From contig NC_045148.1 of NCBI RefSeq assembly GCF_008831285.2, positions 372,001 to 436,000 of the forward strand: a stretch of DNA of 64,000 nt, in the 5' to 3' direction. The DNA is from Nymphaea colorata. Its lineage: Eukaryota > Streptophyta > Magnoliopsida > Nymphaeales > Nymphaeaceae. The notes under the pieces were generated by a model that had not been told where the DNA came from, made no database searches, and saw only the letters and a program-made list of their open reading frames with translations. The position numbers and the translations under genes are program-made. This document shows, piece after piece, positions 5,383 through 64,000 of this stretch (the stretch's first letter is position 1; every line of letters starts with the position of its first letter).

Positions 5383-6784
5383 CTTCCAAGTGTCCTAGTT
5401 ACAGTTAATGAATGAAGGGTTTCAGATGTCATCAGTTCGCCGAATGTTCTGGTTCTATTTGGCCTTCTAATGATTTATTTTTTTATCTTGTTCTCGGAGG
5501 TTGATTTTTCATGATCATGCCTCCATAGGCTTTTGCTCTGTTCTATTTAACGAACAATTAGAAGATTTCTATCGTTGTTGTGCTGTTCAGCTTTTGTTTT
5601 TCAGATTTGATCAATAACACAACTTTATATCATCTTTGAGGTACATGAAATTCTTGAGGGGACAGCTTGTGGCAAACAAGCTCAATTTCCCCACCACCAT
5701 ATTCTTAAAATTATTTATGTTATGACTACGAATGGAAATGGTTGAAATACATGAATCACAGATGACACCTTAAATAGAAATGGCACGCACAATCTCCCCT
5801 GCCAATCTTTTATTCCACCGTAAAAGCCAAGAAGAAGAAAAGAAAGACATGCACGGCATATGCATTTGGAAGTCTCTTCACTTTTTGCAGACAATGCCGT
5901 GACCATTCAAGCTGTTCTTGCACTCAAGTTCCTCATCATGGTGAACACCTCCTCCATCATGATGCGTCCAGTGCTCTTAAACTGTGCCGCTGCACAATCG
6001 GTGGCGAAGAGCCCCGAAGACAAGAACTCGCGATCGCCGCCGAGCACCAGCATCTTCACGCCCATCTTGGCTCTTCTCTTGTAGTTGTCTGCATAGGTCT
6101 GACCCAGCACCCCATTGACGGCGCTGCTGAGAGAGTAGAACCTGAAGCTGAGGTCGAGATGAGCGATGTAGTCATCGTCAGTTATGCCGTAGTTGTGGAT
6201 CTTGGATTCCTCCTTGCCTATGGGAACCACTTTGGCTGTGATTTTGAACTCGTTGGCTGCTTCCACTAAGATCTCATTAGCTCTGCCTGAGCGAGTGATG
6301 GTGAGGGCAGAAGCCGCAGATGTCCATTGGGCATCCTTTGTGGTAGGTAGGAACAAAGGCTCTCCATCGAAAGCAATGGCTAATTGATCAATGGCATCAT
6401 CCCATTGGGCAATCTATGATATATACAGTACGTAAGTTAATATAAGATGATTAAAACTGTAAAACACTTTCTCTCAAAATCCCAATTTCATAGACTGGCT
6501 TTTTTCTTGACAGCTAATTATAAAAAAAAACTGCAGAATTTGATCAGTCTCTTTACCCTTATTTTGGCGCTATTATTTGTTTCATACATAATTGATCATA
6601 TCCTTAATTATCAGAGCTGCTGGAATCGTTACCTTCTTGGCACCAATGAAGAGCTTGTGGTGGTCGAAGAGGAAGCCGATGGATTGAACCCACATGACAT
6701 CATGCTTCACACTATCCCCTCTCTTGTCGATGAAGTGGCCGTTGATGTGAAGGTTGATGTTGGAGATCAAGCAAAATCTTTGTC

Positions 6785-7066
6785 TGTTAACGATAAGGTG
6801 GAAAGACAATCACTTCTAAAGAGATTCAAGGAAAGAATCTCAACAAGATAAATAAAAATTAAATGATAAAGGGAAAAAAATCTTTCTACTAAATCAGATT
6901 TAGTTTCCATGTTTATCGTCAAATGGATGCCAATGTTGCCTATTTAAGCTATTTCTTTGCATTGTGTAATTAAGACTCATGATGGCCTTTTCCAGTGAAA
7001 ACCATGCATGTTTAATGAAAATAATCTTTTCATTACATTTGTTTGCTTTTTTATATTTTTTCAACA
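6785..7066 (+). repeat. Left LTR of the TRIM-type element
   Basis: 282 bp, beginning TGTTAACGATAAGG and ending TTTTTTCAACA, so it keeps the canonical TG...CA ends. It is immediately followed by the decayed primer binding site at 7067-7080. Confidence 0.85.
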
Positions 7067-7290
7067 TGATATTAAAGCAGAGAAGAAGATCGAAGCCCAA
7101 AGATGGCCTGCAGACAACCAAAGAGATCGCTGTGTTCTTCATCAGCGCAAAGACTTGATCCTTTTGAAGCAAAACTTCAAAAAGCAAATTTAGGCTCGTC
7201 AAATCACTACCAAAGAAATGGAATGACTACCTTTTACAAAGTTCTGCAATAAACATAAAATTTCAGATCCATCGTCCAGTTTGAGGGAGA
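7067..7290 (+). other. Left internal domain with decayed PBS and PPT
   Basis: 224 bp, homologous throughout to 11750-11975 (226 bp): shared GAAGATCGAAGCCCAAAGAT, CTTTTGAAGCAAAACTTC and ATCCATCGTCCAGTTTGAGG. The primer binding site TGATATTAAAG differs from the intact TGGTATCAGAG by G-to-A and C-to-T type changes, the pattern left by cytosine deamination. The polypurine tract TTGAGGGAGA abuts the middle LTR. Confidence 0.8.
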
Positions 7291-7505
7291 TGTTAACGAT
7301 AAAATTGAAAGACAATCACTTCTAAAAAGATTCAAGAAAAGAATTCCAGCAAGATAAATCAAAATTAAATGATAAAGAAAAAAAAAATCTTTCTACAAAG
7401 TCAGATTTAGTTTCCATATTTATCTTCTCTTTCTTCGCATTGTATAATCAAGGCTCATGATGGCCTTCCATGGTGAAAAACCATCCATGTCGAATGAAAA
7501 TAATT
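7291..7505 (+). repeat. Middle LTR, truncated at its 3' end
   Basis: It starts TGTTAACGATAAAATTG directly after a polypurine tract and matches the outer LTRs up to GAATGAAAATAATT. The last 50-60 bp of the LTR and the expected primer binding site are missing; unrelated cargo sequence begins here. Confidence 0.8.
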
Positions 7506-8045
7506 CCCACCAGCCATTTAAACGGAGAGAGAGAAAGCGAGGTCCGCCAGGAATTCAGGGTTACTTGAATATCACGGCGTTGTCTTTTCGGGTCCCTCTC
7601 GCTAGGAAGTCGGTCAATTATCGATCTCTGGCCAATGACCTCCTCTACCGCCAGAAATTGAACCCAGTCGTCCATTGATGAGGAGTGAGTCGCGGAAGGA
7701 CCATTCGGTCTTCGATTTCAATGTCGAATATGACTTTACTGAGATTGCATCCATCGAGAGGATGCGGAAATTCAAGGGCAGAGAGAACCATAGGGCAGAA
7801 GAAAGTCGTCCATCGAAGTACGATTTCCTCAAGATGTTTATCAAGAGATGCTTATAGTCATCATTCAGAAATAACCAATGTTGATGCATGTTCATCAAGA
7901 AAGGGTGAAACGATGGACATTTCCACATCAAGGGATTGCAAAGGATTGGACTATGGTGACCAAGTTGCTTATGAGCATGAAAAAATCTCGAAGAGGCGCT
8001 TTCCAACAAGGTTTTTAAATCTCCAGAAATTACGTGACAAACAAT
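7506..8045 (+). pseudogene. Captured gene fragment(s) of unknown origin
   Basis: This sequence lies between the truncated middle LTR and the first ARF unit and has no counterpart in copy B. Short plus-strand open stretches have coding-like composition (7675-7857 and 7685-8179, in different frames), including an FPTRFLNLQKLRDKQLNYST stretch that runs on into the acidic segment starting at about 8050. I do not recognise the family. The open pieces are broken by frame changes, so this is a transduced remnant rather than a gene. Confidence 0.45.
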
Positions 8046-9409
8046 TGAACTATTCCACTGCCATGTTGAAGGATCTGTCATATGAAGCTGCTGTTGATAT
8101 GACTTCAGATGATGATGACGACGAATGCTCAACTGGAAGTCCTTTATCAGTTTTTTGTCTTTGTTTCTTCAGAAAATGAAGGAGAACATAGACGCACTGA
8201 CGGTTACTTTGAAACCAGTACTTCGACTACTCTCTGTGATGGTTGACTGATTAGATAAAGGAGCACTGTTTGCGGAAGGTGATGTAGAACAAGATGGCAC
8301 ATCATCTGTGACTATGGATGGTGCCCCATTGGCCATTACACTATTAGCAGACATTGACATAAAATTAGTTGCTGATGGCAGCACCAATCCAGCCAGTTGC
8401 TGTTGAAATTTTTGCTGCAGAAGTTGACAAGGTTGGACCCCTGTCTGAGTTCTTGGCAGCATCCTGTTGTTGCTGCACCAGTGTCACTTGCTGGGTTTGC
8501 TGTTGAGCCATCAAATGCACTTGTGAAAGTTGTGGTGTGTCCAACAAAAGCTGCCTTTGTTGCTTAAGCAACTGGGTTTTTTGAAACTTTGTGACAGTAG
8601 ATTGTGACATCAGCGAGTGTTGCTGAAGTTTTTGCAATAATTGCAACTGAATCTGTTGTTCAAACTGCTGCAGCTGCTGCATGTGTTGTGGTTGTTGCTG
8701 AACGGCTTGGAGGGTCAATGCCTGCTGTTGAAAAAGGAGACTGGGATCTTGTCTTGCTGCTGGCTCTGAACATTTATTTGTTGAACTGGCTACTGCTGTT
8801 GCTGGTTTTGCATTATACTAGGTATCTCCTGGGACTGCAGAAGCAACAGTTGCTGTTGCAGGTGACGGGGCAGGTGACTTGGAGACGGGAGTTGAGATTG
8901 TAGAAGTTGTGTTTGGGCTGGAGCCTGCATAAAAGCTTGGCTAGCCAAACATTGTTGCTTCTGCTGCCGCTGTTGATTAATTTCATCTATTTGTTGCAGT
9001 TGCTGCTGAGGACGACTTCTTGCCCCAGGCTGGCTTACTGTGGGTGGTAGCTTCTGCAATTGATCAACCTGTTGTGGTTGTTGCAGCTTTGGAGGGTTGA
9101 GCTGCAAATTGTTCTGCTGCAACATCTAAGATTGCAAGCCCAGCTGTCTTAACACATCAGCTGTGTTCCCAATGCCTTGTAATACGTGTGAAAATGGTGA
9201 TGCTAATTGCCATAGGTAGTCAGGCTGGAGGGTCACATTTGGAAGCTGCAAGTTTTGCTGCATGCTCATCCACTGAACCAGACTTAAGCCAGGGATGATG
9301 GAATTCTGACTTTGAGAATCCTTTATGCAAATTTCCTCATTAGGCCATGGCATAGTTCTTTTAAGAAGGCTCTCCATATCAGACTCGTCTTCTACAAAAG
9401 CAGTTCTCA
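8046..9409 (-). pseudogene. Captured ARF7/ARF19-like middle-region fragment, copy 1
   Basis: On the minus strand, 9409 to about 8365 encodes the middle region of an activator auxin response factor: a TMPWPNEEICIKDSQ segment, PGLSLVQWMSMQQN, LRQLGLQS, then a long Gln-rich stretch with QLQLLQKLQQHS. This order is typical of ARF7/ARF19-class proteins (established family knowledge). A stop replaces Gln after LRQLGLQS (9126-9128) and the Gln-rich part is shifted between frames. The B3 DNA-binding and PB1 domains are absent. The plus-strand end (about 8050-8180) carries a short open acidic segment with DDDDDECSTGSPLS from another gene. Confidence 0.8.
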
Positions 9410-9411
9410 TA

Positions 9412-10800
9412 TCATTTCCTGTTCCACCGCCATGTTGGAGGATTTGTCATTTGAAGCTGCAGTTGATATGACTTATGATGATGACGACGATGAATGCTCA
9501 ACTGGAAGTCCTTTATCAGTTTCTGTCTCTGTTTCGTGAGAAAAATGAATGAGAACATAGACGCATTGATGGTTACTTCGAAACCAGTACTTCGACTACT
9601 CTTTGTGATGGTTGACTGATTAGATAAAGGAGCTATGTTTGTGGAAGGTGATGTAGAACAAGATGGCACATCATCTGCGGATGGTGTCCCATTGGCCAAT
9701 ACACTATTAGCAGACATTGACATAAAATTAGTTGCTGATGGCAGCACCAATCCAGCCCTGTCTGTCAACAGGCTTGGTTGCTGCTGACATTTTTGCTGCA
9801 GAGGTTGCGATGTTTGGACCCCTGTCTGTGAGTTCTTTGCTGCATCCTGCTGTTGCTGCACCGGTGTCACTTGCTCGGTTTGCTGTTGAGCCATCAACTG
9901 CACTTGTGAAAGTTGTGGTGTGTCCAACAAAAGCTGCCTTTGTTGCTCAAGCAACTGGGTTGTTTGAGTCTGTGTGACAGTAGATTGTGACATCAGCGAA
10001 TGTTGCTGAAGTTTTTGCAATAATTGCAACTGAATTTGTTATTCAGACTGCTGCAGCTGCTGCATGTGTTGTGGTAGTTGCTGGACGGCTTGGTGGCCCA
10101 GTGCCTGCTGTTGCAAAAGGATGGTTTGGACTGGATCCTGTCTTGCTGCTGGCTCTGAACATTTATTTGTTGAACTGGCTGCTGCTGGTGGTGGTTTTGC
10201 ATTATACTAGGTATCTCTTGGGACTGCAGAAGCAACTGTTGCTGTTGCAAGTCACTGGGCAGGTGACTTGGAGACGGGAGTTGAGATTGTAGAAGTTGTG
10301 TTTGGGCTGGAGCCTGCATAAAAGCTTGGCTAGCCAAACATTGTCGCTTCTGCTGCTGTTGTTGATTAATTTCATCTATTTGCTGCAGTTGCTGCTGAGG
10401 ACGATTTACTGCCCCAAGCTGGCTTACTGTGGGTGGTAGCTTCTGCAATTGATCAACCTGTTCTGGTTGTTGCAGTTTTGCAGGGTTGAGCTAGAAATTG
10501 TTCTGCTGCAACATTTGAGATTGCAAGCCCAGCTGTCTTGACACATCAGCTGTGTTCCCAACGCCTTGTTATACTGGTGAAAATGGTGATGCTAATTGCC
10601 GTAGGTAGTCAGGCTGGAGGGCCACATTTCGAAGCTGCGAGTTTTGATACATGCTCATCCACTGAACCAGGATTAAGCCAGGGATGATGGAATTATGAGT
10701 TTGAGAATCCTTCATGCAAATTTCCTCATTAAGCCATGGCATAGTTCTTTTAAGAAGGCTCTCCATATCAGACACGTCATCTACAAAAGCAGTTCTACAG
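9412..10800 (-). pseudogene. Captured ARF7/ARF19-like fragment, copy 2
   Basis: The second tandem copy starts about 1.37 kb after the first (the motif CTCAACTGGAAGTCC recurs at 8128, 9497 and 10908). It has the same order on the minus strand: DMESLLKRTMPW, Gln-rich region and the QLQLLQKLQQ-like tail. The beginning is less complete than in copy 1 and the reading frame is broken at several points, including a stop in the PFSPV segment near 10569. The acidic plus-strand segment is again open and ends in SPLSVSVSVS. Confidence 0.8.
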
Positions 10801-10814
10801 AAGTTTGGTTAGTC

Positions 10815-11749
10815 ATATCATTTTCTGTTCCACTGCCTTGTTGGAGGATTTGTCATATGAAGCTGCTGTTGATATGACTTCTGATGATGATGACGATGAA
10901 TGCTCAACTGGAAGTCCTTTATCAGTTTCTGTCTCCGTTTCTTGAGAAAAATGAATGAGAACATAGACGCATTAATGGTTACTTTGAAACCAGTACTTCG
11001 ACAACTCTTTGTGATGGTTGACTGATTAGCTAAAGTAGCACTGTTTGTGGAAGGTGATGTACAACAAGATGGCACATCATCTGCGGATGGTGTCCCATTG
11101 GCCAATACACTATTAGCAGACATTGACATAAAATTAGTTGCTGATGGCAGCACCAATCCAGCCATGTCTGTCAACAGGCTTGGTTGCTGCTGACATTTTT
11201 GCTGCAGAGGTTGCGATGTTTGGACCCCTGTCTGTGAGTTCTTTGCCGCATCCTGCTGTTGCTGCACCGGCGTCACTTGCTGCGTTTGCTACTGAGCCAT
11301 CAACTGCACTTGTGGAAGTTGTGGTGTGTCCAACAAAAGCTGCCTTTGTTGCTCAAGCAACTGGGTTGTTTGAGACTGTGTGACAGTAGATTGTGACATC
11401 AGCTACTGTTGCTGAAGTTTTTGCAATAATTGCAACTGAATCTGTTGTTCAGACTGCTGCAGCTACTACATGTGTTGTGGTAGTTGCTGGACGGCTTGGT
11501 GGCTCAGTGCCTGCTGTTGCAAAAGGATGATTTGGACTGGTATCATGTCTTGCTGCTGCCTCTGAATATTTATTTGTTGAACTGGCTGCTGCTGCTGCTG
11601 GTTTTGCATTATACTAGGTATCCCCTGGGACTGCAGAAGCAACTGCTGCTGTTGCAGGTGACTGGGCAGGCAACTTGGAGACAGGAGTTGAGATTGTAGA
11701 AGTGATGTTTGGGCTGGAGCGTGCATAAAAGCTTAGCTAGCCCAAAGTT
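10815..11749 (-). pseudogene. Captured ARF-like fragment, copy 3, truncated
   Basis: The third copy runs from the acidic segment (10840-10945 on plus) through the Gln-rich region and stops at about 11749, where the intact primer binding site of the TRIM begins. It lacks the PGLSLVQW part present in copies 1 and 2. The junction sequence is AGCTAGCCCAAAGT followed at once by TTGGTATCAGAG. The Gln-rich frame is broken. Confidence 0.75.
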
Positions 11750-11975
11750 TGGTATCAGAGTAGGAAAAGAAGATCGAAGCCCAAAGATGGCCAGAATACG
11801 ACCAAAGAGATCACTGCCTTCTTCATCAAAGCAAAAACTATATCCTTTTGAAGCAAAACTTCATGAAGCAAATTTGGGCTCGCCCAATCACCGCCAAAGA
11901 GATGGAATGATCAGCTTTTACAAAGTTCAGCAACAAACTTGAACTTTCAGATCCATCGTCCAGTTTGAGGGAGGA
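11750..11975 (+). other. Right internal domain with intact PBS and PPT
   Basis: TGGTATCAGAG (11750-11760) is the usual primer binding site for initiator methionine tRNA in Copia-type elements. CAGTTTGAGGGAGGA (about 11960-11975) is the polypurine tract directly before the right LTR. The domain is too short to encode any retroelement protein; the 77-codon frame at 11709-11942 is not a known protein. Confidence 0.8.
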
Positions 11976-12269
11976 TGTTAACGATAAGATTGAAAGACAA
12001 CCATTTCTAAAGAGATTCAGGAAAGAATCTCTACAGGATAAATCAAAATTAAATGATAAAGAGAAAGAAAATCTTTCTAAAAAAATCAGATTTAGTTTTC
12101 ATGTTTATCGTCAAATGGATGCCAATGTCGCCTATTTAAGTTGTTTTTTTGCATTGTTTAATCAAGGCTCATAACGGCCTTTCATTGTAAAAAACCATGC
12201 ATGTTTAATGAAAATAATCTATTCATTTCATTTGTTTGTTTACTTTGCTTCTTTTATATTTTTTCGAAA
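11976..12269 (+). repeat. Right LTR of the TRIM-type element
   Basis: 294 bp, starting TGTTAACGATAAGATTG and homologous to the left LTR to its end. The expected terminal CA is changed: the LTR finishes TTTTTTCGAAA just before the TTGTC target duplication. The two outer LTRs differ at many positions, so the insertion is not recent. Confidence 0.8.
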
Positions 12270-12810
12270 TTGTCCTTCTGGCCATGGAAGTAGAAGGCGA
12301 TGTCGTCACCACCAATGAACCGTGGGTCACCGCATACTTCACCGGGCCTGTCACATTTTGCAAGTATCACCACCCAAAAAATTGTCATCAGCAAATTATT
12401 CAGATCAGCTTCATTTATGCGGATCTCCTTGGGAACGTATATACATAAACATTGTAATTAATTGATTAAATGGATGAGTGTGCATGTGCAGAAATTGACA
12501 ATTACCACACACAGGCTTGCACTGGCCACAATCGACTTTGCATGTTCTAGGGCAGGCAGCAGGGCATGAGTGCACCCGTCCATGGCATTCCTTGAACTCC
12601 TTGTGCCTGCAGGACACCTTCTTGCAACTGGACTTGTCGGATCCGCCAGATTTGGATTTGGATTTGTCATCTGCAGCTGTCACCTGCATGATGATGAGCA
12701 GGATGAGAATGCACACACCCACGCTCTTCCTTGACGAGGCCATCTTTCTTAACTTTAACCCTTAATAATTTCCAATCTCATGTGTGATTGCAACTCTATC
12801 AGTCCCTATC

Positions 12811-18716: not shown

Positions 18717-20469
18717 ACCCGATCATGGCAAACTCCGGCTGCAGAGATCAGGGCAATGCCAAGCAATCCCCATGGAAGGAAGAAACCTCGCTCAAAGACT
18801 TCCACGCCCAAGATAAAAACCTCGCTCCCGCCTAAGAAAGAAACGTCGTTCTACGGTTACAACCAATCTGATGCTTTCCACCTACCTATTAGTGTATTAA
18901 CTTATCAGAATTAGTTTATTGCCTTTATCTCAATCACATATTGGGAGCACAAATGACGTCGTTCCACTGCTTCTGTTTTAAATTATTTCTTCTTTTAGGT
19001 AATTTGTCAAAATTTCTTTCACATCTAGTCTAGTTAATGCACTGGGTATCTCGTTGATGATTTTCATTGCAAAAAATTTAAGGTTTGGATAGTCACTTTC
19101 ATTCCTATTTCTTAATATATGTGAACACAATATGTTAAAACTAAAGCTAAAGAAGCATTATCAAGAACGAATGACTAAACTACAATTGCAAAAGTATAAA
19201 TGTGTTATCAATCTCATGATATGAATGACCACATTTACTTGCATATCACAATTGGATATTATCGTACATTTTTATCTCTAGTTAGGGATTTTAAATCAAA
19301 TATTCGTCTAAATCATTCGAAAAAAAATGGATATGAAAAAAAAAATCTGATTAAGAAATCAGATTAGATTCAGATTTAAAAAATAGCATTCGATCGGATT
19401 TGGATATACATAAATATTTTGTTGGATTTGGATGTGGATTTGAATCAAATTTATTTTTAAACAAATATCATATATCTAATGCTCTTGCATTCTATATATC
19501 AATCAAATTTAGTTCAAAATTTACATCATGATTCATATATAAATGTAAAAATCGCATTCAAAACAGATTGAGATTGTGACATCGGATTTCAGATTCAGAT
19601 ATAACTTTTATTTGTTTGTATTCAAATTTAAATTTGAATGTGGACATCTGAATATCTAAAAAAGCGTTAAAGGGTACATCTAATTCAAATCTAATCTACT
19701 CACAATCTTACCTTATATTTTAGGATGAACGACACCTTGCTTCATAGCCTAATATCTTGCATAGTTTAATATCTCGCGATGAATGGCATTTTGCATGTCA
19801 AATGCAGGAACAAATATCTCACGATGATTGAGTGCGTCTTGCATGTTAAATGCATAGAGTAATATTTCAATCAAGTCTAATAGTGCATTATTCACTTTTC
19901 TATTCAATTATTGGACAAAACCCGTCCATACAACTTGACATAATGGACAATGTTGCTTCCAAGTGTCCTAGTTACAGTTAATGAATGAAGGGTTTCAGAA
20001 GTCATCAGTTTGCCGAATGTTCTGGTTCTATTTGGCCTTCCAATGATCTGTTTTTTTATTTTGTTTTGGAGGTTGATTTTTCATGCCTCCATAGGCTTTT
20101 TGCTCTGCCCTATTCAACTAACAGTTAGAAGATTCTTATCGTTGCAATGTTGTTCACCTTTCGTGCTTCAATTTGAACAATAACACAACTTTTGATCATC
20201 TTTGAGGTAAATGAAGTTCTTAAAAGGAAAGCTTGTAGTAAACAAGCTCAATTTCCCCACCACAACTTATTGGTCACACATATTCGAAATTTTTTATGTT
20301 ATGACAACGAAAGGACATGGCGGAATTGAATGATTGAAAAACATGAATCACAGATGACACCTTAAACAGAAGAGACGCGCACACTCTCCCTTGCCAATCT
20401 TTTATTCCAGCGTAAAAGGCAAGAAGTAGAAAAAAAAGACATGCACGGCTTGTGCATTTGGAGCTCTCT

Positions 20470-20939
20470 TCACTTTTTGCAGACAATGCCGCGACCATTC
20501 AAGCTGCTCTTGTACTCAAGTTCCTCATGATGTCAACACCACCGTCCATGATGATGCGTCTTGTGCTTTTAAACTGTGCCGCTGCACAATCGGTGGCGAA
20601 GAGCCCCGAAGACAAGAACTCGCGCTCGCCGCCGAGCACCGACATCTTCACGCCCATCTTGGCTCTGGTCTTATAGTTGTCTGCGTAGGTCTGACCCAGC
20701 ACCCCATTGACGGCACCGCTGAGAGAGTAGAACCTGAAGCTGAGGTCGAGATGAGCGAAGCAGTCATCGTCGGTTATGCCGTAGTTGTGGATCGTGGACT
20801 CCTCCTTGCCGAGGGGAACCACTTTGGCTGTGATTTTGAACTTGTTGACTGCTTCCACTACGATCTCATTAGCCCGAGCGAGTGATGGTGAGGGCAGAAG
20901 CCGCAGATGTCCATTGGGCATCCTCTATGTTAGGTAGGA
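20470..20939 (-). pseudogene. Truncated root-cap exon 3, array unit 1
   Basis: Matches exon 3 of gene B from the stop codon to the GGTAGGA breakpoint. A 1-bp loss (CATGATGTCAAC instead of CATGATGGTCAAC on plus) shifts the C-terminal frame, and a second frame change lies near the 5' side. The GVLGQTYADNY motif is present. No start codon or signal peptide context. Confidence 0.85.
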
Positions 20940-21658
20940 TACCTTGCATAGTTTAATATCTCGCGATGAATGACATTTTGCATGTCAAATACAGAAAGCA
21001 AATATCTCACGACGATTGAGTGCGTCTTGCATGTTAAATGCAGGGAGCAATATTTCAATCAAGTCCAATAGTGCATTATTCACTTTTCTATTCAATTATT
21101 GGACAAAATCTGTCCATTCAACTTGAGATAAAGGACAATGTTGCTTCCAAGTGTCCTAGTTACAGTTAATGAATGAAGGGCTTCAAATGTCATCAGTTTG
21201 CCGAATGCTCTGGTTCTATTTGGCCTTTCAATGATCTGCTTTTTATCTTATTTTGGGAGGTTGATTTTTCATGCCTCCATAGGCTTTTTGCTCTGTTCTA
21301 TTCAACCAACAGTTAGAAGATTCTTGTCGTTGCTATGTTGTTCAGCTCTCGTGCTTCAGATTTGAACAATAACACAACTTTTGATCATCTTTGAGGTACA
21401 TGAAGTTCTTGAGATGAAAGCTTGTAGTAAACAAGCTCAATTTCCCCACCACAACTTATTAGTCACACATATTCGAAATTTTTTATGTTATGACAACGAA
21501 AGGACATGGCGGAATTGAATGGTTGAAAAACATGAATCACAAATGACACCTTAAACAGAAGAGGCGCGCACACTCTCCCCTGCCAATCTTTTATTCCAGC
21601 ATAAAAGGCAAGAAGTAGAAAAGAAAGATATGCACGGCTTGTGCATTTGGAGCTCTCT

Positions 21659-22134
21659 TCACTTTTTGCAGACAATGTCGCAACCATTCAAGCTGCTCTT
21701 GCACTCAAGTTCCTCGTGATGGTCAACACCACCCTCCATGATGAAGCGTCCTGTGCTTTTAAACTGTGCCGCTGCACAATCAGTGGCAAAGAGCCCCGAA
21801 GACAAGAACTCGAGCTCACCACCGAGCACCGGCATCTTCACGCCCATCTTGGCTCTGCTCTTGTAGTTGTCTGCCTAGGTCTGACCTAGCACCCCATTGA
21901 CGGCGCCGCTGAGAGAGTAGAACCTGAAGTTGAGGTCGAGATGAGCGAAGCAGTCATCGTCGGTTATGTCGTAGTTGTGGATCCTGGACTCCTCCTTGTC
22001 GATGGGAACCACTTTGGCTGTGATTTTGAACTTGTTGACTGCTTTCACTACGATCTCATTAGTTCTGCCCGAGCGAGTCATGGTGATGGTAGAAGCCGCA
22101 GATGTCCATTGGGCATTCTCTATGTTAAGTAGGA
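21659..22134 (-). pseudogene. Truncated root-cap exon 3, array unit 2
   Basis: The Tyr codon of GVLGQTY is replaced by a TAG stop (plus strand GTCTGCCTAGGTCTGACC). The rest of the exon continues openly to VCKK and the normal stop. Confidence 0.85.
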
Positions 22135-22852
22135 TACCTTGCATAGTTTAATATCCCGCGATGAATGACATTTTCCATGTCAAATGCAGGGACAAATATC
22201 TCACGATGATTGAGTGCTTCTTGCATGTTAAATGCAGGGAGTAATATTTCGATGAAGTCCAATAGTGCATTATTCACTTTTCTATTCAATTATTGGACAA
22301 AACCCGTCCATTCAACTTGAGATAATGGATAATGTTGCTTCCAAGTGTCCTAGTTACAGTTAATGAATGAGGGGTTTCAGATGTCATTAGTTTGCCGAAT
22401 GCTCTGTATCTATTTGGCCTTCTAATGATCTGCTTTTTATCTTGTTTTGGGAGGTTGATTTTTCATGGCTCCATAGGCTTTTTGCTCTGTTTTATTCAAC
22501 CAACAGGTAGAAGATTCCTATCGTTGCTATGTTGTTTAGCTTTCGTGCTTCAGATTTGAACAATAACATAACTTTTGATCATCTTTGAGGTACATGAAGT
22601 TCTTGAGGGGAAAGCTTGTAGTAAACAAGCTCAATTTCCCCACCACAACTTATTGGTCACACATATTTGAAATTTTTTATGTTATGACAACGAAAGGACA
22701 TGGCGCAATTGAATGGTTGAAAAACATGAATCACAGATGACACCTTAAACAGAAAAGGTGCGCACACTCTCCCCTGCCAATCTTTTATTCCAACATAAAA
22801 GGCAAGAAGTAGAAAAGAAAGACAAGCACGGCTTGTGCATTTGGAGCTCTCT

Positions 22853-23327
22853 TCACTTTTTGTAGACAATGCCGCGACCATTCAAGCTGCTCTTGCACTC
22901 AAGTTCCTCATGATGTCAACACCACCCTCCATGATGATGCGTCATGTGCTTTTAAACTGTGCCACTGCACAATCAGTGGCGAAGAGCCCCGAAGACAAAA
23001 ACTCGCGCTCGCCGCCGAGCACCGACATCTTCACGCCCATCTTGGCTCTAGTCTTGTAGTTGTCTGCGTAGGTCTGACCCAGCACCCCATTGACGGCGCC
23101 GTTGAGAGTGTAGAACCAGAAGCTGAGGTCGAGATGAGCGAAGCAGTCATCGTCGGTTATGCCGTAGTTGTGGATCCTGGACTCCTCCTTGCCGATGGGA
23201 ACCACATTGGCTGTGATTTTGAACTTGTTGACTGTTTTCACTACGATCTCACTAGTTCTGCCCGAGCGAGTGATGGTGAGGGTAGAAGCCTTAGATGTCC
23301 ATTGGGCATCCTCTATGTTAGGTAGGA
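22853..23327 (-). pseudogene. Truncated root-cap exon 3, array unit 3
   Basis: Carries the same 1-bp loss (CATGATGTCAAC) as unit 1, so the frame changes after the CAVAQFKST region. GVLGQTYADNY is intact. Confidence 0.85.
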
Positions 23328-24046
23328 TATCTTGCATAGTTTAATATCCCGCGATGAATGCCATTTTGGATGTCAAATGCAGGGACAAATATCTCACTAT
23401 GATTGAGTGCTTCTTGCATGTTAAATGCAGAGAGTAATATTTCAATCAAGTCCAATAGTGCATTATTCACTTTTTTATTCAATTATTGGAAAAAACCCGT
23501 CCATTCAACTTGAGATAATGGACAATGTTGCTTTCAAGTGTCCTAGTTACAGTTAATGAATGAAGGGTTTCAGATGACATCAGTTCGCCGAATGCTCTGG
23601 TTCTATTTGGCCTTCTAATGATCTGTTTTTTTATCTTGTTTTGGGAGTTTGATTTTTCATGCTTCCATAGATTTTTTGCTCTGTTCTATTCAACCAACAC
23701 TTAGAAGATTCTTGTCGTTGCTATGTTGTTCAGCTCTCGTGCTTCAGATTTGAACAATGACACAACTTTTGATCATCTTTGAGGTACATGAAGTTCTTGA
23801 GATGAAAGCTTGTAGTAAACAAGCTCAATTTCCCCACCACAACTTATTGGTCACACATATTCGAAATTTTTTATGTTATGACTACGAAAGTACATGGCGG
23901 AATTGAATGGTTGAAAAACATGAATCACAGATGACACGTTAAACAGAAGAGACATGCACACTCTCCCCTGCCAATCTTTTATTCCACCGTAAAAGGCAAG
24001 AAGTAGAAAAGAAAGACATGCACAGCTTGTGCATTTGGAGCTCTCT

Positions 24047-24523
24047 TCACTTTTTGTAGACAATACCGCGACCATTCAAGCTGCTCTTGCACTCAAGTTC
24101 CTCATGATGGTCAACACCACCCTCCATGATGAAGCGTCCTGTGCTTTTAAACTGTGTTTGCTGCACAATTGGTGGCAAAGAGCCCCGAAGACAAGAACTC
24201 GAGCTCGCCGCCGAGCACCGGCATCTTCACGCCCATCTTGGCTCTGCTCTTGTTGTTGTCTGCCTAGGTCTGACCTAGCACCCCATTGACGCCGCCGCTG
24301 AGAGAGTAGAACCTGAAGTTGAGGTCGAGATGAGCGAAGCAGTCATCGTCGGTTATGTCGTAGTTGTGGATCCTGGACTCCTCCTTGCCGATGGGAACCA
24401 CTTTGGCTGTGATTTTGAACTTGTTGACTGCTTCCACTACGATCTGATTAGTTCTGCCCGAGCGAGTGATGGTGAGGGTAGAAGCCGCAGATGTCCATTG
24501 GGCATCCTCTATGTTAGGTAGGA
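24047..24523 (-). pseudogene. Truncated root-cap exon 3, array unit 4
   Basis: Shares the TAG stop in GVLGQTY with unit 2 and the CTCGAGCTC variant upstream of it. A further small insertion (CTGTGTTTGCTGC on plus) disturbs the frame. Confidence 0.85.
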
Positions 24524-25242
24524 TACCTTGCATAGTTTAATATCTCGTGATGAATGGCATTTTCGATGTCGAATGCAGGGACAAATATCTCACGATGATT
24601 GAGTGTGTCTTCCATGTTAAATGCAGGGAGTAATATTTCAATCAAGTCCAATAGTGCATTATTCACTTTTCCATTCAATTATTGGACAAAACCCGTCCAT
24701 TCAACTTGAGATAATGGACAATGTTGCTTCCAAGTGTCCTAGTTACAATTAATGAATGAAGGGTTTCAGATGTCATGAGTTCGCCGAATGCTCTGGTTCT
24801 ATTTGACCTTCAAATGATCTGCTTTTTTATCTTGTTTTGGGAGGTTGATTTTTCATGCCTCCATAGATTTTTTGCTCTGTTCTATTCAACCAACACTTAG
24901 AAGATTCTTGTCGTTGCTATGTTGTTCAGCTCTCGTGCTTCAGATTTGAACAATAACACAACTTTTGATCATCTTTGAGGTACATGAAGTTCTTGAGATG
25001 AAAGCTTGTAATAAACAAGCTCAATTTCCCCGCCACAACTTATTGGTCACACATATTCGAAATTTTTTATGTTATGACAACGAAAGGACATGGCGGAATT
25101 GAATGGTTGAAAAACATGAATCACAAATGACACCTTAAACAGAAGAGACGCACACACTCTCCCTTGCCAATCTTTTATTCCAGCGTAAAAGGCAAGAAGT
25201 AGAAAAGAAAGACATGCACGGCTTATGCATTTGAAGCTCTCT

Positions 25243-25718
25243 TCACTTTTTGCAGACAATGCCGCGACCATTCATGCTGCTCTTGCACTCAAGTTCCTCA
25301 TGATGGTCAACACCACCCTCCATGATGATGCGTCCTGTGCTTTTAAATTGTGCCGCTGAACAATCGGTGGCGAAGAGCCCCGAAGACAAGAACTCGCGCT
25401 CGCCGTCGAGCACCGACATCTTCACGCCCATCTTGGCTCTGCTCTTGTAGTTGTCTGCATAGGTCTGACCCAGCACCCCATTGATGGCGCCGCTGAGAGA
25501 GTAGAACCTGAAGCTGAGGTCGAGATGAGCGAAGCAGTCATCGTCGGTTATGCCGTAGTTGTGGATCCTGGATTCCTCCTTGCCGATGGGAACCACTTTG
25601 GCTGTGATTTTGAACTTGTTGACTGCTTCCACTACGATCTGATTAGTTCTGCCCGAGCGAGTGATGGTGAGGGTAGAAGCCGCAGATGTCCATTGGGCAT
25701 CCTCTATGTTAGGTAGGA
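25243..25718 (-). pseudogene. Truncated root-cap exon 3, array unit 5, frame open
   Basis: The exon 3 portion is open from the breakpoint to VCKK and the stop. Because the breakpoint joins it to flank sequence, a 161-codon frame starting MQGILPNIED is created (25243-25728). It would lack a signal peptide. Only about two codons differ from unit 6, so these two are the youngest pair. Confidence 0.85.
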
Positions 25719-26437
25719 TACCTTGCATAGTTTAATATCTCGTGATGAACGGCATTTTCGATGTCGAATGCAGGGACAAATATCTCACGATGATTGAGTG
25801 TGTCTTCCATGTTAAATGCAGGGAGTAATATTTCAATCAAGTCCAATAGTGCATTATTCACTTTTCCATTCAATTATTGGACAAAACCCATCCATTCAAC
25901 TTGAGATAATGGACAATGTTGCTTCCAAGTGTCCTAGTTACAATTAATGAATGAAGGGTTTCAGATGTCATGAGTTCGCCGAATGCTCTGGTTCTATTTG
26001 ACCTTCAAATGATCTGCTTTTTTATCTTGTTTTGGGAGGTTGATTTTTCATGCCTCCATAGATTTTTTGCTCTGTTCTATTCAACCAACACTTAGAAGAT
26101 TCTTGTCGTTGCTATGTTGTTCAGCTCTCGTGCTTCAGATTTGAACAATAACACAACTTTTGATCATCTTTGAGGTACATGAAGTTCTTGAGATGAAAGC
26201 TTGTAATAAACAAGCTCAATTTCCCCGCCACAACTTATTGGTCACACATATTCGAAATTTTTTATGTTATGACAACGAAAGGACATGGCGGAATTGAATG
26301 GTTGAAAAACATGAATCACAAATGACACCTTAAACAGAAGAGACGCACACACTCTCCCTTGCCAATCTTTTATTCCAGCGTAAAAGGCAAGAAGTAGAAA
26401 AGAAAGACATGCACGGCTTATGCATTTGAAGCTCTCT

Positions 26438-26913
26438 TCACTTTTTGCAGACAATGCCGCGACCATTCATGCTGCTCTTGCACTCAAGTTCCTCATGATG
26501 GTCAACACCACCCTCCATGATGATGCGTCCTGTGCTTTTAAATTGTGCCGCTGAACAATCGGTGGCGAAGAGCCCCGAAGACAAGAACTCGCGCTCGCCG
26601 TCGAGCACCGACATCTTCACGCCCATCTTGGCTCTGCTCTTGTAGTTGTCTGCATAGGTCTGACCCAGCACCCCATTGACGGCGCCGCTGAGAGAGTAGA
26701 ACCTGAAGCTGAGGTCGAGATGAGCGAAGCAGTCATCGTCGGTTATGCCGTAGTTGTGGATCCTGGATTCCTCCTTGCCGATGGGAACCACTTTGGCTGT
26801 GATTTTGAACTTGTTGACTGCTTCCACTACGATCTGATTAGTTCTGCCCGAGCGAGTGATGGTGAGGGTAGAAGCCGCAGATGTCCATTGGGTATCCTCT
26901 ATGTTAGGTAGGA
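26438..26913 (-). pseudogene. Truncated root-cap exon 3, array unit 6, frame open
   Basis: Same open 161-codon frame as unit 5 (26438-26923), nearly identical in sequence including flanks. GVLGQTYADNY and the terminal Cys are kept. No promoter of its own is seen; expression would need readthrough from gene B. Confidence 0.85.
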
Positions 26914-27631
26914 TACCTTGCATAGTTTAATATCTCGTGATGAATGACATTTTCGATGTCAAATGCAGGGACAAATATCTCACGATGATTGAGTGTGTCT
27001 TGCATGTTAAATGCAGGGAGTAATATTTCAATCAAGTCCAATAGTGCATTATTCACTTTTCCATTCAATTATTGGACAAAACCCGTCCATTCAACTTGAG
27101 ATAATGGACAATGTTGCTTCCAAGTGTCCTAGTTACAGTTAATGAATGAAGGGTTTCAGATGTCATGAGTTCGCCGAATGCTCTGGTTCTATTTGGCCTT
27201 CAAATGATCTGCTTTTTATCTTATTTTAGGAGGTTGATTTTTCATGCCTTCATAGGCTTTTTGCTCTGTTCTATTCAACCAACACTTAGAAGATTCTTGT
27301 CGTTGCTATGTTGTTCAGCTCTCGTGCTTCAGATTTGAACAATGACACAACTTTTGATCATCTTTGAGGTACATGAAGTTCTTGAGATGAAAGCTTGTAG
27401 TAAACAAGCTCAATTTCCCCACCACAACTTATTGGTCACACATATTCGAAATTTTTTATGTTATGACAACGAAAGGACATGGCGGAATTGAATGGTTGAA
27501 AAACATGAATCACAAATGACACCTTAAACAGAAGAGACGCACACACTCTCCCTTGCCAATCTTTTATTCCAGCGTAAAAGGCAAGAAGTAGAAAAGAAAG
27601 ACATGCACGGCTTATGCATTTGGAGCTCTCT

Positions 27632-28946
27632 TCACTTTTTGCAGACAATGCCGCGACCATTCATGCTGCTCTTGCACTCAAGTTCCTCATGATGGTCAAC
27701 ACCACCCTCCATGATGATGCGTCCTGTGCTTTTAAACTGTGCCGCTGCACAATCGGTGGCGAAGAGCCCCGAAGACAAGAACTCGCGCTCGCCGCCGAGC
27801 ACCGGCATCTTCACGCCCATCTTGGCTCTGCTCTTGTAGTTGTCTGCATACGTCTGACCCAGCACCCCATTGACGGCGCCGCTGAGAGAGTAGAACCTGA
27901 AGCTGAGGTCGAGATGAGCGAAGCAGTCATCGTCGGTTATGCCGTAGTTGTGGATCTTGGATTCCTCCTTGCCGATGGGAACCACTTTGGCTGTGATTTT
28001 GAACTTGTTGACTGCTTCCACTACGATCTCATTAGTTCTACCCGAGCGAGTGATGGTGAAGGTAGAAGCTGCAGATGTCCATTGGGCATCCTCTATGTTA
28101 GGTAGGAACACAGGCTCTCCATCGAAAGCAATGGCTAGTTGATCAATGGCATCGTCCCACTGGGCAACCTATATGATGTGTAGAGAGAATGCAATTGTTA
28201 ATTAAAATCACGTGACACTTTCTCTTAAATCCCCTACTTAAATAAACTGGGTTTTTTTTAACAGCTAATTGTAAAATTGATGCGGATCAAGCTTTGATCA
28301 TTTCTGCAATTTGATCAGTTTTACCTTCTTGGCACCAATGAATAGCTTGTGGTCATCCAAAAGGAGGCCGATGGATTGAACCCACGTGAAATCACGCTTC
28401 ATGCCGTCCCCTCTCTTGCCGATGAAGTGGCCGTTGATGTGAAGGTTGGTGTCGGAGACCAAGCAGAAATCTCTATCCTTCTGGCCGTGGAAGTAGAAGG
28501 TGATGCCGTCACCACCAATAAAGCGTGGGTCATCGCAGACTGCACCTGGCCTGTCACATTCTGCAAATATCATCACCCAAAAAATTTTCATGAGCAAATT
28601 ATTCAGATCAGCTTCATTTATGCGGATCTCCTTGTGAACGTATATACATAAACATTGCAATTAATTGGTTTATTGGATGATTCTGCATGTGTAGAAATTG
28701 GCAGTTACCGCAGACAGGCTTGCACTGGCCGCAATCGACTTTGCATGTTCTAGGGCAGGCAGCAGGGCATGAGTGCACCTGTCCATGGCATTCCTTGAAC
28801 TCCTTGTGCCTGCAAGACACCTTCTTGCAACCGGACTTGTCGGATCCACCGGATTCGGATTTGGATTTGTCACCTGCAGCTGCCACCTGCACAATGATGA
28901 GCAGGATGAGAATGGACACACCCATGCTCTTCCTTGACGAGGCCAT
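27632..28946 (-). CDS. Root-cap/LEA-related secreted protein, gene B
   Basis: Three exons on the minus strand: 28709-28946 (238 bp), 28325-28560 (236 bp), 27632-28168 (537 bp). All junctions are GT-AG and the sum is 1011 bp, giving 336 residues. The start MASSRKSMGV opens a signal peptide with the hydrophobic core ILILLIIVQVAAA. A Lys/Ser/Gly linker follows, then a Cys-rich segment (CKKVSCRHKEFKEC to CGQCKPVC). Exon 2 gives a conserved FIGGDGITFYFHGQKDRDFC block. Exon 3 has GVLGQTYADNY at about residues 259-269, the signature of the Root_cap family (PF06830); known relatives are secreted and enriched in root cap, with unknown biochemical function. The gene faces gene C head to head; its last exon founded the downstream array. 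Confidence 0.85.
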
Positions 28947-29024
28947 CTTTCTTAACTTTAACTCTCTTTAACCCTTAATGGTTTCCAATCTGATATGTGA
29001 TTGCAACTCTGATCAGTCCCTATC

Positions 29025-29032
29025 TATTTATA
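29025..29032 (-). promoter_or_regulatory. TATA box of gene B
   Basis: Minus-strand TATAAATA, 79 bp upstream of the start codon, in a CTATAAATAGATAGGGAC context. Genes A and C have the same motif and the upstream CCTCTCAA block, so the core promoter is conserved among the three genes. Confidence 0.65.
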
Positions 29033-29069
29033 GTACTTGAGAGGTTGGGGTTTGGTGTGCACGTCAATT

Positions 29070-29101
<32 letters not shown>

Positions 29102-29305
29102 TTATATGTATGTATGCATTGCACGATCAGTACAACATTTTAAAAACTAAGATTTGACAGAATGTATCCTTTTATATTATATGGTCTCTGCTCAACACCT
29201 TGTGGGGATGAGCTTGCATGAATCTAACACAGCCAAGTCAGGGACTTTTGTGGTTCTATCTTAATGCGATCATTAACTCTTTTAGTACTTTAATTTAAAC
29301 GTTTA

Positions 29306-29467
29306 GAGGTTGTTTAGCAAATGAAACACTTAGTAAGTGTAATTCCATGAAACTGCCTTAAAAATCCAAGCAAATTCATAGAAACATAGTTCTAGTGTTT
29401 CATGAATTCACTCCCATCTTTGGGGGTAAATTCATGACACAAAGTTTTCCATTTGATAAGCGACTCC
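29306..29467. mobile_element. 162-bp MITE shared by both segment copies (copy B)
   Basis: Counterpart of 13493-13654: ends AGAGGTTGTTTAGCAAATG and TTTGATAAGCGACTCC, flanked by TTA. Its presence in both copies dates it before the duplication. Confidence 0.65.
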
Positions 29468-29847
29468 TTAAAGTCCGATCAAGTAAATTGATGGATAGAA
29501 TTGAAATCAGTCGGCCGCCATAAGGCAAGAAAAATTAAACCCTCACTAGAACACCATAACTAAATTAAAGTACTATAAACCACCACTAAACTACCAAAGT
29601 GTCACTAATGCTCCTGTGGGTAATGACTTTTGACAAATTTTTAAGCTTTTCAATTAGTAATTACCCAGCAACATCTGGCCCAGCTGATTTCAATTCCCTA
29701 CTAATTGGACGTCAGCAAAGATTTCTTCTCTATGAAATTTGCAATCAATCCGCTAATGTGATGTGGTAATAATGGCTGAGTGAAACTGGATGCCTTTACA
29801 AGCAGGACATCGCCCCTCTTGTTGAATAAAAGGGGCATGCGGTCCTG

Positions 29848-30511
29848 GACATTCCATATATATTTTATTTGAAGGGCTACCTAGTCCTTGGAGTTAAAGA
29901 AGTCAAACCAGGTACTTAAGCAAAATTAATTTGATAATGACCCAGAAGATGGTATTCTTAAAGCACGTCTATCATATTCTTTTATAGCTAATAATTAATC
30001 TAGTTGCTTATAATAATTAACTTCACTAGTTAGAGAAGCATAATGCGGCCCCATCATCAAAATCTGAGTCCTTCAGACTGTGATCCACGCAAGTGTTATA
30101 GTGCAATATCGAAAGACTAATCAATATTTCCAAGAGAAGTCATCTTAAGTACCTGGATTAGCTATATGAATTATGAAGGCAGGAAACGTACCTAATTTGG
30201 AATGGGATCTTATATGACACTTATCTATGTCAATCTTGTCTGGATCTGTTGCTGATTACCACATTCAGCTAATCGATATTGCGTCCACATATTTTTCTAT
30301 TACCATATACTATTAAAAGAAGGCCTAGATATTGCGTCCACATGTTTTCTCCAACATAAACTGATCTACCTTTTTAAACAATGTAAGATAGTAGACGTGC
30401 AAGGCATGAACATTCTAACTATCTAGAAGGTCGTTAAATAAATAATTTTTTGTTAATTGACGTGCCATCCAAACACAATTGTCCTACTGTAGCACTGCAA
30501 CCTCTCAACTA
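29848..30511. other. Intergenic DNA between divergent genes B and C
   Basis: No coding signal. Together with the gene B upstream region it forms about 1.66 kb between the two start codons (28946 and 30612). It contains the unique 5' flank of gene C outside the duplicated segment. Confidence 0.5.
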
Positions 30512-30514
30512 CTC

Positions 30515-30522
30515 TATAAATA
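30515..30522 (+). promoter_or_regulatory. TATA box of gene C
   Basis: TATAAATA about 90 bp before the start codon, preceded by GCAACCTCTCAACTACTC and followed by GATAGCAACTC. The arrangement mirrors the gene B promoter in reverse orientation. Confidence 0.65.
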
Positions 30523-30611
30523 GATAGCAACTCATGGAGTTGTAATCACACATCAAGTTAGAAGTCATTGTAGGCAAGCTTAAGAGTTAGAGAGAGCTAA
30601 AATCAAGAAAC

Positions 30612-31988
30612 ATGGCCTTGTCATGGAAGAGCATAGGCGTCTGCGTTCTCATCCTGCTCATCATCGTTCAGATGGCAGCTGCAGATGACAAATCCAAATC
30701 CGAATCCGGTGGATCCGACAAGTCCGGATGCAAGAAGGTGTCCTGCAGGCACAAGGAGTTCAAGGAATGCCATGGACAGGTGCACTCATGCCCTGCTGCC
30801 TGCCCTAGAACCTGCAAAGTCGATTGCGGCCAGTGCAAGCCTGTCTGCGGTAACTGTCAATTTCTACACATGCACACTCATCCGTTAAACCAATTAATTG
30901 CGATGTTTATGTATATAGGTTCACCAAGGAGACCCGCATAAATGAGGCTGATCTGAATAATTTGCTTATGAAAATTTTTTGCGTGGTGATATTTGCAGAA
31001 TGTGACAGGCCGGGTGCAGTCTGCGATGACCCACGCTTTATTGGTGGTGACGGCATCACCTTCTATTTCCACGGCCAGAAGGACAGAGATTTCTGCTTGG
31101 TCTCCGACACCAACCTTCACATCAATGGCCACTTCATCGGCAAGAGAGGGGACGGCATGAAGCGTGATTTCACGTGGGTTCAATCCATCGGCCTCCTCTT
31201 CGACGGCCACAAGCTCTTCATTGGTGCCAAGAAGGTAACGGTTCTAGCATCTCTCGTAATTAAGGATATGATCAATTATGTATTATGAAACGAATAACAG
31301 CGCCAAAATAAAGGCAGAGAGACTGTTCTGCAGGTTTTTTTATAATTATCTATTTAGAAAAAGGCCAGTTTAAGAAATTGGGATTTTGAGAGAAAGAGTT
31401 TTACGGTTTTAATCATCTTATATTAACAATTGCATAATGTATATAACATAGGTTGCCCAATGGGATGATGCCATTGATCAATTAGCCATTGCTTTCGATG
31501 GAGAGCCTGTGTTCCTACCTACCACAGAGGATGCCCAATGGACATCTGCGGCTTCTGCCCTCACCATCACTCGTTCAGGCAGAGCTAATGAGATCGTAGT
31601 GGAAGCAGCCAACCAGTTCAAAATCACAGCCAAAGTGGTTCCCATAGGTAAGGAGGAGTCCAGGATCCACAACTATGGCATAACCGACGATGACTGCTTC
31701 GCTCATCTCGACCTCAGCTTCAGGTTCTACTCTCTCAGTGGCGCCGTCAATGGGGTGCTGGGTCAAACCTACGCAGACAACTACAAAAGCAGAGCCAAGA
31801 TGGGCGTGAAGATGCCAGTGCTCGGCGGCGATCGCGAGTTCTTGTCTTCGGGGCTCTTCGCCACCGATTGCGCAGCGGCACAGTTTAAGAGCACAGGACG
31901 CATCATCATGGAGGGTGGTGTTGATCATCATGAGGAACTCGAATGCAAGAGCAGCTTGAATGGTCGTGGGATTGTATGCAAGAAATGA
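30612..31988 (+). CDS. Root-cap/LEA-related secreted protein, gene C
   Basis: Three plus-strand exons: 30612-30849, 30999-31234, 31452-31988. The sizes 238, 236 and 537 bp are identical to gene B and give 336 residues. It starts MALSWKSIGVCVLI with a signal peptide of about 24 residues, cleaved probably near AAADDKSK. The Cys-rich segment HSCPAACPRTCKVDC spans about residues 58-72. Exon 2 carries the FIGGDGITFYFHG and NLHINGHFIGKR blocks; exon 3 carries GVLGQTYADNY at about 259-269 and ends GIVCKK. These are Root_cap family features. Predicted location is extracellular or cell wall; the role is unknown. It is divergent from B and convergent with the subtilase gene. A possible AATAAA polyadenylation signal is at 32143-32148. 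Confidence 0.88.
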
Positions 31989-35278: not shown

Positions 35279-35337
<59 letters not shown>

Positions 35338-46687: not shown

Positions 46688-63957
<17,270 letters not shown>

Positions 63958-64000
63958 GTGCTTTTTATTTTGATGTATTTTTGATAGGGTAACTCACACT

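Follow-up and report, generated by a model that had tools for sequence, protein, structure and literature searches.

The window analysed here, a 64,000-nucleotide stretch of contig NC_045148.1 of Nymphaea colorata, contains a small retrotransposon that carries pieces of two unrelated host genes and lies inside a broken Root_cap gene. Positions 6785-12269 constitute a single TRIM-type LTR insertion, flanked by TTGTC target-site duplications at 6780-6784 (5') and 12270-12274 (3'); the coordinates that an earlier sequence-only reading had given for the element were correct. The TRIM core itself is small, and the whole element reaches 5.5 kb because of its host-gene cargo.

The disrupted Root_cap (PF06830) gene lies on the minus strand. 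Its 3' part (5907-6779) shows 1-nt gaps with respect to its paralogues, and comparison with these placed the 5' part, comprising the predicted first exon and the start of the second, at 12275-12761. In three Root_cap relatives the insertion-free site is contiguous at the position of the 5' duplication. The copy in the window has 33 private changes in 756 columns, distributed 14/13/6 over codon positions 1/2/3, whereas two of its paralogues have 0/1/12 and 4/1/11 (positions 1+2 vs 3, p = 2e-6). These results indicate that the host Root_cap copy was broken by the element and then decayed.

LTRs, internal regions and TRIM family

The element consists of three LTRs and two internal regions, all on the plus strand, with the middle LTR truncated; this additional LTR and the second internal region had escaped the earlier reading, as had the broken Root_cap gene. 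LTR1 (6785-7066, 282 bp) starts with TG, ends with CAACA and thus with the expected CA, and contains a TATA-like box, TATTTAA, at 6941 and a polyA-like AATGAAAATAAT at 7014. It is followed by internal region 1 (7067-7290), with a degenerate primer binding site (PBS) at 7067 and a polypurine tract at 7280-7290. LTR2 (7291-7504) lacks its 3' part and a TATA-like box, the break being located just past AATGAAAATAAT at 7493-7504. On the other side of the cargo, internal region 2 (11750-11975) carries the intact PBS, TGGTATCAGAGT (11750-11761), and a polypurine tract at 11964-11975. LTR3 (11976-12269, 294 bp) has a TATA-like box like that of LTR1, and its 3' end has decayed to CGAAA, leaving AA at the terminus; many of the displayed relatives end in CAACA or nearly so. 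The polypurine tracts noticed in the initial reading lie directly before LTR2 and LTR3. That reading also proposed a Met-type PBS, and in agreement with it the first 11 bases of TGGTATCAGAGT, matched by eye, fit the 3' ends of tRNA-Met genes of this genome plus CCA; ARAGORN called Met(CAT) in all four tRNA loci scanned, and the matching tRNA is presumably the initiator tRNA-Met.

Of 281 aligned sites, 31 distinguish the outer LTRs (11.0%), and these differ from LTR2 by 14.4% and 14.8%. The LTR tree was star-like and weakly supported, with LTR1 and LTR3 not appearing as sisters, and internal regions 1 and 2 differed at 40 of 224 sites. The star-like tree led us to abandon dating by LTRs alone, and the other two observations make such dating weak.

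The idea of a TRIM with transduced host sequence was supported, as the LTRs recur in the genome as paired repeats and the cargo matches host genes. A genome search with the LTR, in which the best 40 of 173 candidates were scored, gave at least 76 matches; among 16 loci fetched from the better ones, 13 showed by our reading the order LTR-internal-LTR, some with incomplete parts. At least one fetched locus was a tandem TRIM. In ten other displayed copies, 5-bp duplications were exact in five (three of them with one common flank), matched at 4/5 positions in one and were absent in two; in the remaining two the 3' LTR end was not located. In a search for other cargo-bearing members, the internal region gave at least 49 matches (best 40 of 97 candidates scored) and the PBS pattern five, and two loci without an evident 5' LTR were fetched. 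One of these retains a 29-bp LTR end. At the other a different, dispersed repeat of 295 bp, LTR-like in position, adjoins the edge of the PBS; no clear target duplication was seen there.

The host-derived cargo

The cargo (about 7505-11749) starts in the truncated LTR2, right after the polyA-like motif, and its far end lies no more than about 2 nt from the 5' border of the second PBS. Two genes contribute to this chimera, a sense piece of a ULP2-like SUMO-protease mRNA and an antisense, Gln-rich ARF7-like exon, and the unit formed by ULP2 exons 2-4 plus ARF is present three times, the third truncated. The three ARF-bearing tandem repeats originally described are thus real, with a spacing of about 1.4 kb; the accompanying "other gene sequence", left unnamed at that stage, is also present and corresponds to the spliced ULP2-like piece, which occurs in every unit.

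The ULP2-like part (7505-8214, plus strand) comprises the 5'UTR and exons 1-4 and aligns with its parent at 88-93% identity; the BLAST match begins at 7525, the likeness of 7505-7524 to the parent being judged by eye only. With respect to the parent locus three GT-AG introns are missing exactly, at junctions 7838/7839, 8083/8084 and 8181/8182 (splice sites at the parent genes are predicted). The parent gene has a PH_ULP match (6e-14). Parent alignment also identified spliced ULP2 segments on the same strand in unit 2 (9418-9583; end of exon 2 and exons 3-4) and unit 3 (10824-10989).

The ARF fragments lie on the minus strand. In unit 1 (8212-9419) the exon runs to 9391 and is followed by an intron tail (9392-9419) that has lost 17 nt; in unit 2 (9581-10825) the exon runs to 10780 and the tail occupies about 10781-10825; the truncated fragment of unit 3 (10987-11749) adjoins the PBS within about 2 nt. 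Their assignment to an ARF7/ARF19-like gene held, since the parent on C2 is 91-93% identical, has B3 and AUX_IAA matches and has a PB1 domain nearest to ARF7 in the PDB. Describing the fragment as an ARF exon was right in that the exon is there, yet incomplete, as the fragment continues beyond a predicted splice acceptor into intron sequence and has ULP2 sequence joined to it. A CAG acceptor precedes DDES(D/N)MES at three ARF loci, the parent and two paralogues; the cargo extends past it and retains about 45 nt of the predicted upstream intron. An antisense ARF part with retained intron implies that its source was not a spliced sense mRNA.

The ULP2 and ARF parts meet at an AAA common to both, and this joint is identical in all three units. 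Between units, the ARF parts differ at 80/1189 (A1-A2), 42/758 (A2-A3) and 59/732 (A1-A3) sites, that is, 5.5-8.1%, and beside them the ULP2 segment of unit 1 is oddly divergent (28/164 sites from unit 2). In line with the initial reading, no gag/pol was seen in the part scanned: nearly all of the cargo aligns to the two host genes, and the Pfam check, which covered four cargo reading frames, gave no match above the cut-off. Cargo changes are spread over the codon positions without bias (35/38/37, n = 110), and a coding function was rejected given this decay without codon constraint.

Genome searches with the ARF and ULP2 parts (5/5 candidates scored each) found no cargo copies beyond the parent genes and ARF paralogues; outside the element, the ARF block is confined to its exon in the C2 parent gene and, at weaker similarity, to paralogues on C13 and C9. 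With this and the recurrence of the LTRs as pairs, the idea of transduced host sequence withstood both refuting conditions that the initial reading had set. No TRIM pieces were detected in the 9-10 kb around ULP2 and each of the three ARF loci (E up to 1e-5). A segmental duplication of the ARF exon was rejected, as the ARF part is fused to spliced ULP2 and has no further cargo copy.

Origin of the cargo

We consider it probable that a non-autonomous tandem TRIM carried host sequence that had been generated when reverse transcriptase switched templates. In a TRIM of the tandem form, with three LTRs and two internal regions, tRNA-Met would have primed cDNA synthesis at the PBS; the growing strand would have copied a putative antisense (or unspliced) ARF RNA in place of U5, moved to the ULP2 mRNA, followed this toward its 5' end and returned to the LTR close to the end of R, whose borders are guessed from motifs. 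All three units share one ULP2/ARF joint, so the chimeric template would predate the repeats; at least two units would have to predate the last step, and unequal recombination in the integrated element may have added a further one. Once inserted, the element would have inactivated the Root_cap gene, possibly become methylated, and decayed without coding constraint. Template switching is proposed in PMC1950507 for three-LTR insertions with flanking duplications. The joints bear no mark unique to this process, and DNA repair or recombination could yield the same ones. The non-sister position of LTR1 and LTR3 and the difference between the internal regions do not bear out a single reverse-transcription cycle, and the odd divergence of the unit 1 ULP2 segment likewise counts against this account.

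More tentatively, the cargo may be the relic of a capture made as reverse transcription began: a natural antisense RNA of the ARF7/19-like gene, and then the ULP2 mRNA to near its 5' end, would have served as template for extension of the tRNA primer, two host RNAs thereby replacing U5. If this were true, TRIM cargoes would be readable records of packaged host RNAs, antisense ones included. Spliced sense and unspliced antisense fragments side by side, attached to the TRIM at the edge of the PBS, constrain the timing of capture in reverse transcription.

Alternatively, a plain tandem TRIM could have inserted first, and a later break between LTR2 and the PBS could have been repaired with ULP2 cDNA and ARF DNA as filler, followed by tandem duplication. 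Tandem TRIMs are known in this genome, the ARF part retains intron as DNA would, and the joints share little sequence (AAA; about 1 nt). Furthermore, A2-A3 and A1-A2 differ somewhat less than LTR1 and LTR3 do (p = 0.004 and 0.017, respectively; A1-A3, p = 0.14). We nevertheless regard this course of events as rather unlikely, because a random break would rarely hit a point so near the PBS edge, about 2 nt away at most (an argument, not a computed value), the spliced ULP2 part requires cDNA in any case, and the divergence of the cargo from its parent is similar to the age of the insertion. In rough agreement, LTR1 and LTR3 differ by 11.0% (half, 5.5%), the Root_cap copy has 27 changes among its first and second codon positions (about 504; 5.4%), and the cargo differs from ARF by 5.5-6.3%.

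The element might also act at present as a source of antisense or small RNA that tunes the parental ARF, and be retained for that. RNA driven from LTR1 would be antisense to ARF, as the initial reading inferred in proposing small-RNA production against the parental gene, both outer LTRs having TATA-like boxes, and 527 of 1175 ARF-exon 21-mers match exactly, compared with 5/1280 and 4/240 in two paralogue stretches. In addition, C>T changes were biased to CG+CHG sites (24/534, vs 15/919 at CHH; p = 0.002), as methylation would give, and this modest excess hints at past methylation. On the other hand, transitions (56) and transversions (54) lack the excess that heavy methylation produces, decay is even over codon positions and the element is single-copy, making such a present role quite improbable. 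The locus is nonetheless a concrete place to test whether antisense transcripts or small RNAs affect an activator of the auxin response.

It seems very improbable that the cargo is a nested DNA transposon, of the Pack-MULE or Helitron kind, inside the TRIM. Such elements resemble it in a multi-gene cargo with some intron, but we found no inverted repeat with arms at both cargo ends, as expected of a Pack-MULE (25 longest of 49 pairs, minimum 12 nt); moreover, three ULP2 introns are absent, their precise loss also arguing against a Helitron, and LTR2 lacks its 3' part and does not resume beyond the cargo. An assembly artefact joining unrelated sequences is hardly credible: although there is a single assembly and tandem repeats are difficult to assemble, exact target duplications flank a site that is empty in paralogues, and the units differ from one another at 5.5-8.1% of sites.

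Comparison with known elements

A search with narrow terms found no literature on retroelement-captured ARF fragments. Gene capture by TRIMs and three-LTR TRIMs are already known; the combination found here is new and its arrangement unusual. The sections of PMC4717578 at our disposal describe GmaRetroS15-type acquisitions in soybean that are similar in their 5-bp duplications, in containing exons of more than one gene and in lacking introns, as the ULP2 part does; they report 30 gene-carrying TRIMs with only exon fragments and no introns, 1,172-1,449 bp in length, all but two with two or more copies. Unlike these, the element studied here measures 5.5 kb, was found in one copy, and contains an antisense fragment with intron and three tandem units. 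The same sections describe tandemly arrayed L3I2 TRIMs that share the three LTRs, two internal regions and flanking 5-bp duplications, whereas here the middle LTR is truncated, with 4.2 kb of host sequence after it.

The complex LTR insertions ascribed to abnormal template switching in PMC1950507 also have an internal LTR, two cores and flanking duplications; in contrast to them, the outer LTRs here, 11.0% apart, do not appear highly similar and host sequence occupies the middle joint. Finally, maize Bs1, as presented in an excerpt of PMC13317346, is likewise an LTR element that contains pieces of several host genes, and it gave rise to a transcribed and translated chimeric gene, whereas the cargo described here shows no codon constraint.

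Structure of the insertion and its carrier element

The window corresponds to C11:372001-436000. A single insertion occupies its positions 6785-12269, bounded on either flank by TTGTC exactly where the sequence-only reading had placed its ends. The carrier comprises three LTR copies, LTR1 (6785-7066), LTR2 (7291-7504, without its 3' end) and LTR3 (11976-12269), and two internal regions, INT1 (7067-7290) and INT2 (11750-11975). A 416-base LTR-plus-internal query gave at least 76 matches in the genome (407.8 Mb in 783 contigs; 40 of the 173 candidates scored). Sixteen TRIM loci were retrieved from the better matches, and 13 of them showed, by our reading, the order LTR-internal-LTR, with parts incomplete in some; the LTRs therefore recur elsewhere as paired repeats. 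This order was lacking in L035, L036 and L038, and another of the 16, L032, contained three LTRs and two internal regions. Exact 5-bp duplications flanked five of the ten other copies whose ends were displayed; in one the flanks agreed at 4 of 5 positions, in two they mismatched, and in two the 3' LTR end was unlocated. Three of the five exact cases have a common flank and probably represent one insertion that was duplicated. The TRIM copies L027, L028 and L029 (C3, 18.1-18.5 Mb) have a similar flank and a common TAGTA duplication, which suggests that they arose through duplication of one insertion.

The Met-type primer binding site (PBS) proposed earlier was borne out, as the first 11 bases of the PBS at 11750 fit the 3' end of tRNA-Met from this genome's own genes after CCA addition; ARAGORN assigned Met to all four tRNA loci scanned. 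We take this tRNA to be the initiator. At a C9 locus (L062:4733-5027 with L035:1028-1544), a different dispersed repeat of ~295 bases adjoins the PBS edge of a TRIM internal region. This structure is possibly a hybrid retroelement with the same switch point as the element at 6785-12269; no clear target duplication was seen at this locus.

Origin of the two-gene cargo

Positions 7525-8214 matched a C3 gene in four blocks (L024 2732-3045, 4804-5053, 5143-5240 and 5319-5353). Successive blocks are separated in L024 by GT...AG intervals, across which the cargo passes directly from one exon into the next. We named this gene ULP2-like because of its match to PH_ULP, the ubiquitin-like-protease PH domain (6e-14). 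The ULP2 part is in sense orientation and begins within the 5' UTR, the likeness of its first 20 bases to the parent being judged by eye only.

From 8212 onward the cargo is antisense to a Gln-rich exon of a C2 ARF gene (91-93%), which also matched B3 and AUX_IAA and whose PB1 piece had ARF7 as its best PDB match (116 bits, vs 92 for ARF5). The search for the parental ARF thus led to this gene, the paralogues on C13 (70%) and C9 (83% across 157 bases) being more distant. At all three ARF loci the exon starts with DDES, preceded by a CAG acceptor, a splice site predicted without transcripts. The ARF part of unit 2 extends ~45 nt past this predicted acceptor into the intron, and that of unit 1 contains the same stretch minus a 17-nt deletion. 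The antisense Gln-rich exon therefore stands, but not as an exon alone, and a spliced sense mRNA cannot be the source of the ARF part.

The repeat unit, present three times, consists of ULP2 late exon 2 to exon 4 followed by ARF. The three tandem ARF copies of the sequence-only reading were thus found, but each unit also holds ULP2 and the third is cut: it ends inside the ARF exon and adjoins the PBS within ~2 nt. The ULP2/ARF joint is an AAA common to both parents in all three units, and the ARF/ULP2 joint is identical at both its occurrences. Since units 1 and 2 have ARF sequence absent from unit 3, the array cannot descend from one short unit alone. The ULP2 segment of unit 1 (8050-8213) differs from those of unit 2 (9419-9582) and unit 3 (10825-10988) at 28/164 and 25/164 positions, and the latter two differ from each other at only 10/164; the adjoining ARF parts lack this excess divergence of unit 1.

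Mechanism of capture

An RNA step is required, because the ULP2 part is spliced and sense. Minus-strand cDNA would have taken the antisense, intron-bearing ARF piece from an antisense RNA; alternatively, the source might be an unspliced pre-mRNA copied in plus-strand synthesis, or ARF DNA. The PBS edge is the start point of tRNA-primed synthesis. LTR2 breaks right after a polyA-like motif present in all three LTRs, and this break might be the end of R, whose border is guessed from motifs. Judging from the joints of the cargo, namely the PBS edge and the LTR2 stop after the polyA-like motif, together with its ULP2/ARF make-up, we favour capture around strong-stop synthesis.

The insertion and the two-gene capture are real, and their novelty lies in the combination, not the kind. 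In published work, template switching has been proposed to explain three-LTR insertions flanked by target duplications (PMC1950507), tandem TRIMs and intron-free multi-gene TRIM captures have been described (PMC4717578), and repeat-number changes in Cassandra arrays are attributed to unequal crossing-over (PMC7215508).

Divergence, decay and possible effect on ARF

LTR1 and LTR3 differ at 31/281 positions, LTR1 and LTR2 at 31/215, LTR2 and LTR3 at 32/216, and INT1 and INT2 at 40/224. Among the ARF parts of units 1 to 3 (A1, A2 and A3), differences were 80/1189 (A1-A2), 59/732 (A1-A3) and 42/758 (A2-A3), and relative to the parental gene 71/1184, 67/1220 and 47/747, respectively. Divergence is greater for LTR1-LTR3 than for A2-A3 (p = 0.004) or A1-A2 (p = 0.017), but not than for A1-A3 (p = 0.14). 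Growth or homogenisation of the array may accordingly have followed integration, a reading for which these comparisons are suggestive only. LTR1 and LTR3 may also have been different already at integration, because they are not sisters in the LTR tree, which is star-like with weak support.

In the ARF exon columns, 110 changes were not common to all units (codon positions 35/38/37) and 25 were common to all units present. Taking the living ARF gene as the ancestral state, a simplification, C>T changes numbered 5/68 at CG and 19/466 at CHG, vs 15/919 at CHH (CG and CHG pooled, p = 0.002), an excess such as methylation would be expected to leave; the near-equal transitions and transversions (56 vs 54) are not what heavy methylation would give. 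Exact 21-mers in the cargo amounted to 527/1175 for the ARF exon fragment, 5/1280 for the C13 paralogue stretch, 4/240 for C9 and 84/703 for the ULP2 exons. Silencing of ARF by the cargo is a possible, putative effect.

The disrupted Root_cap gene and its neighbourhood

The insertion lies in a predicted exon of a minus-strand Root_cap gene, and the site is uninterrupted in three relatives, of which two lie inside the window and the third is at its left end. Two 1-nt gaps interrupt the coding columns of the disrupted copy. Its private changes are distributed 14/13/6 over the three codon positions (756 columns), vs 0/1/12 and 4/1/11 in two paralogues; we infer that its time as a pseudogene roughly equals the age of the insertion. 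Ten of the 19 genome-wide matches to PF06830 (Root_cap) are on C11, at 371216-403886. The tandem array spans window positions 20343-32001 and C11:371216-403886, with six related stretches evenly spaced ~1.2 kb apart within 20.3-26.9 kb; in two copies the matched stretch contains a TAG in frame. Reading frames at 32704-36446 and 63079-63984 of the window resemble a subtilisin-like protease and a DEAH-box helicase, as named by eye.
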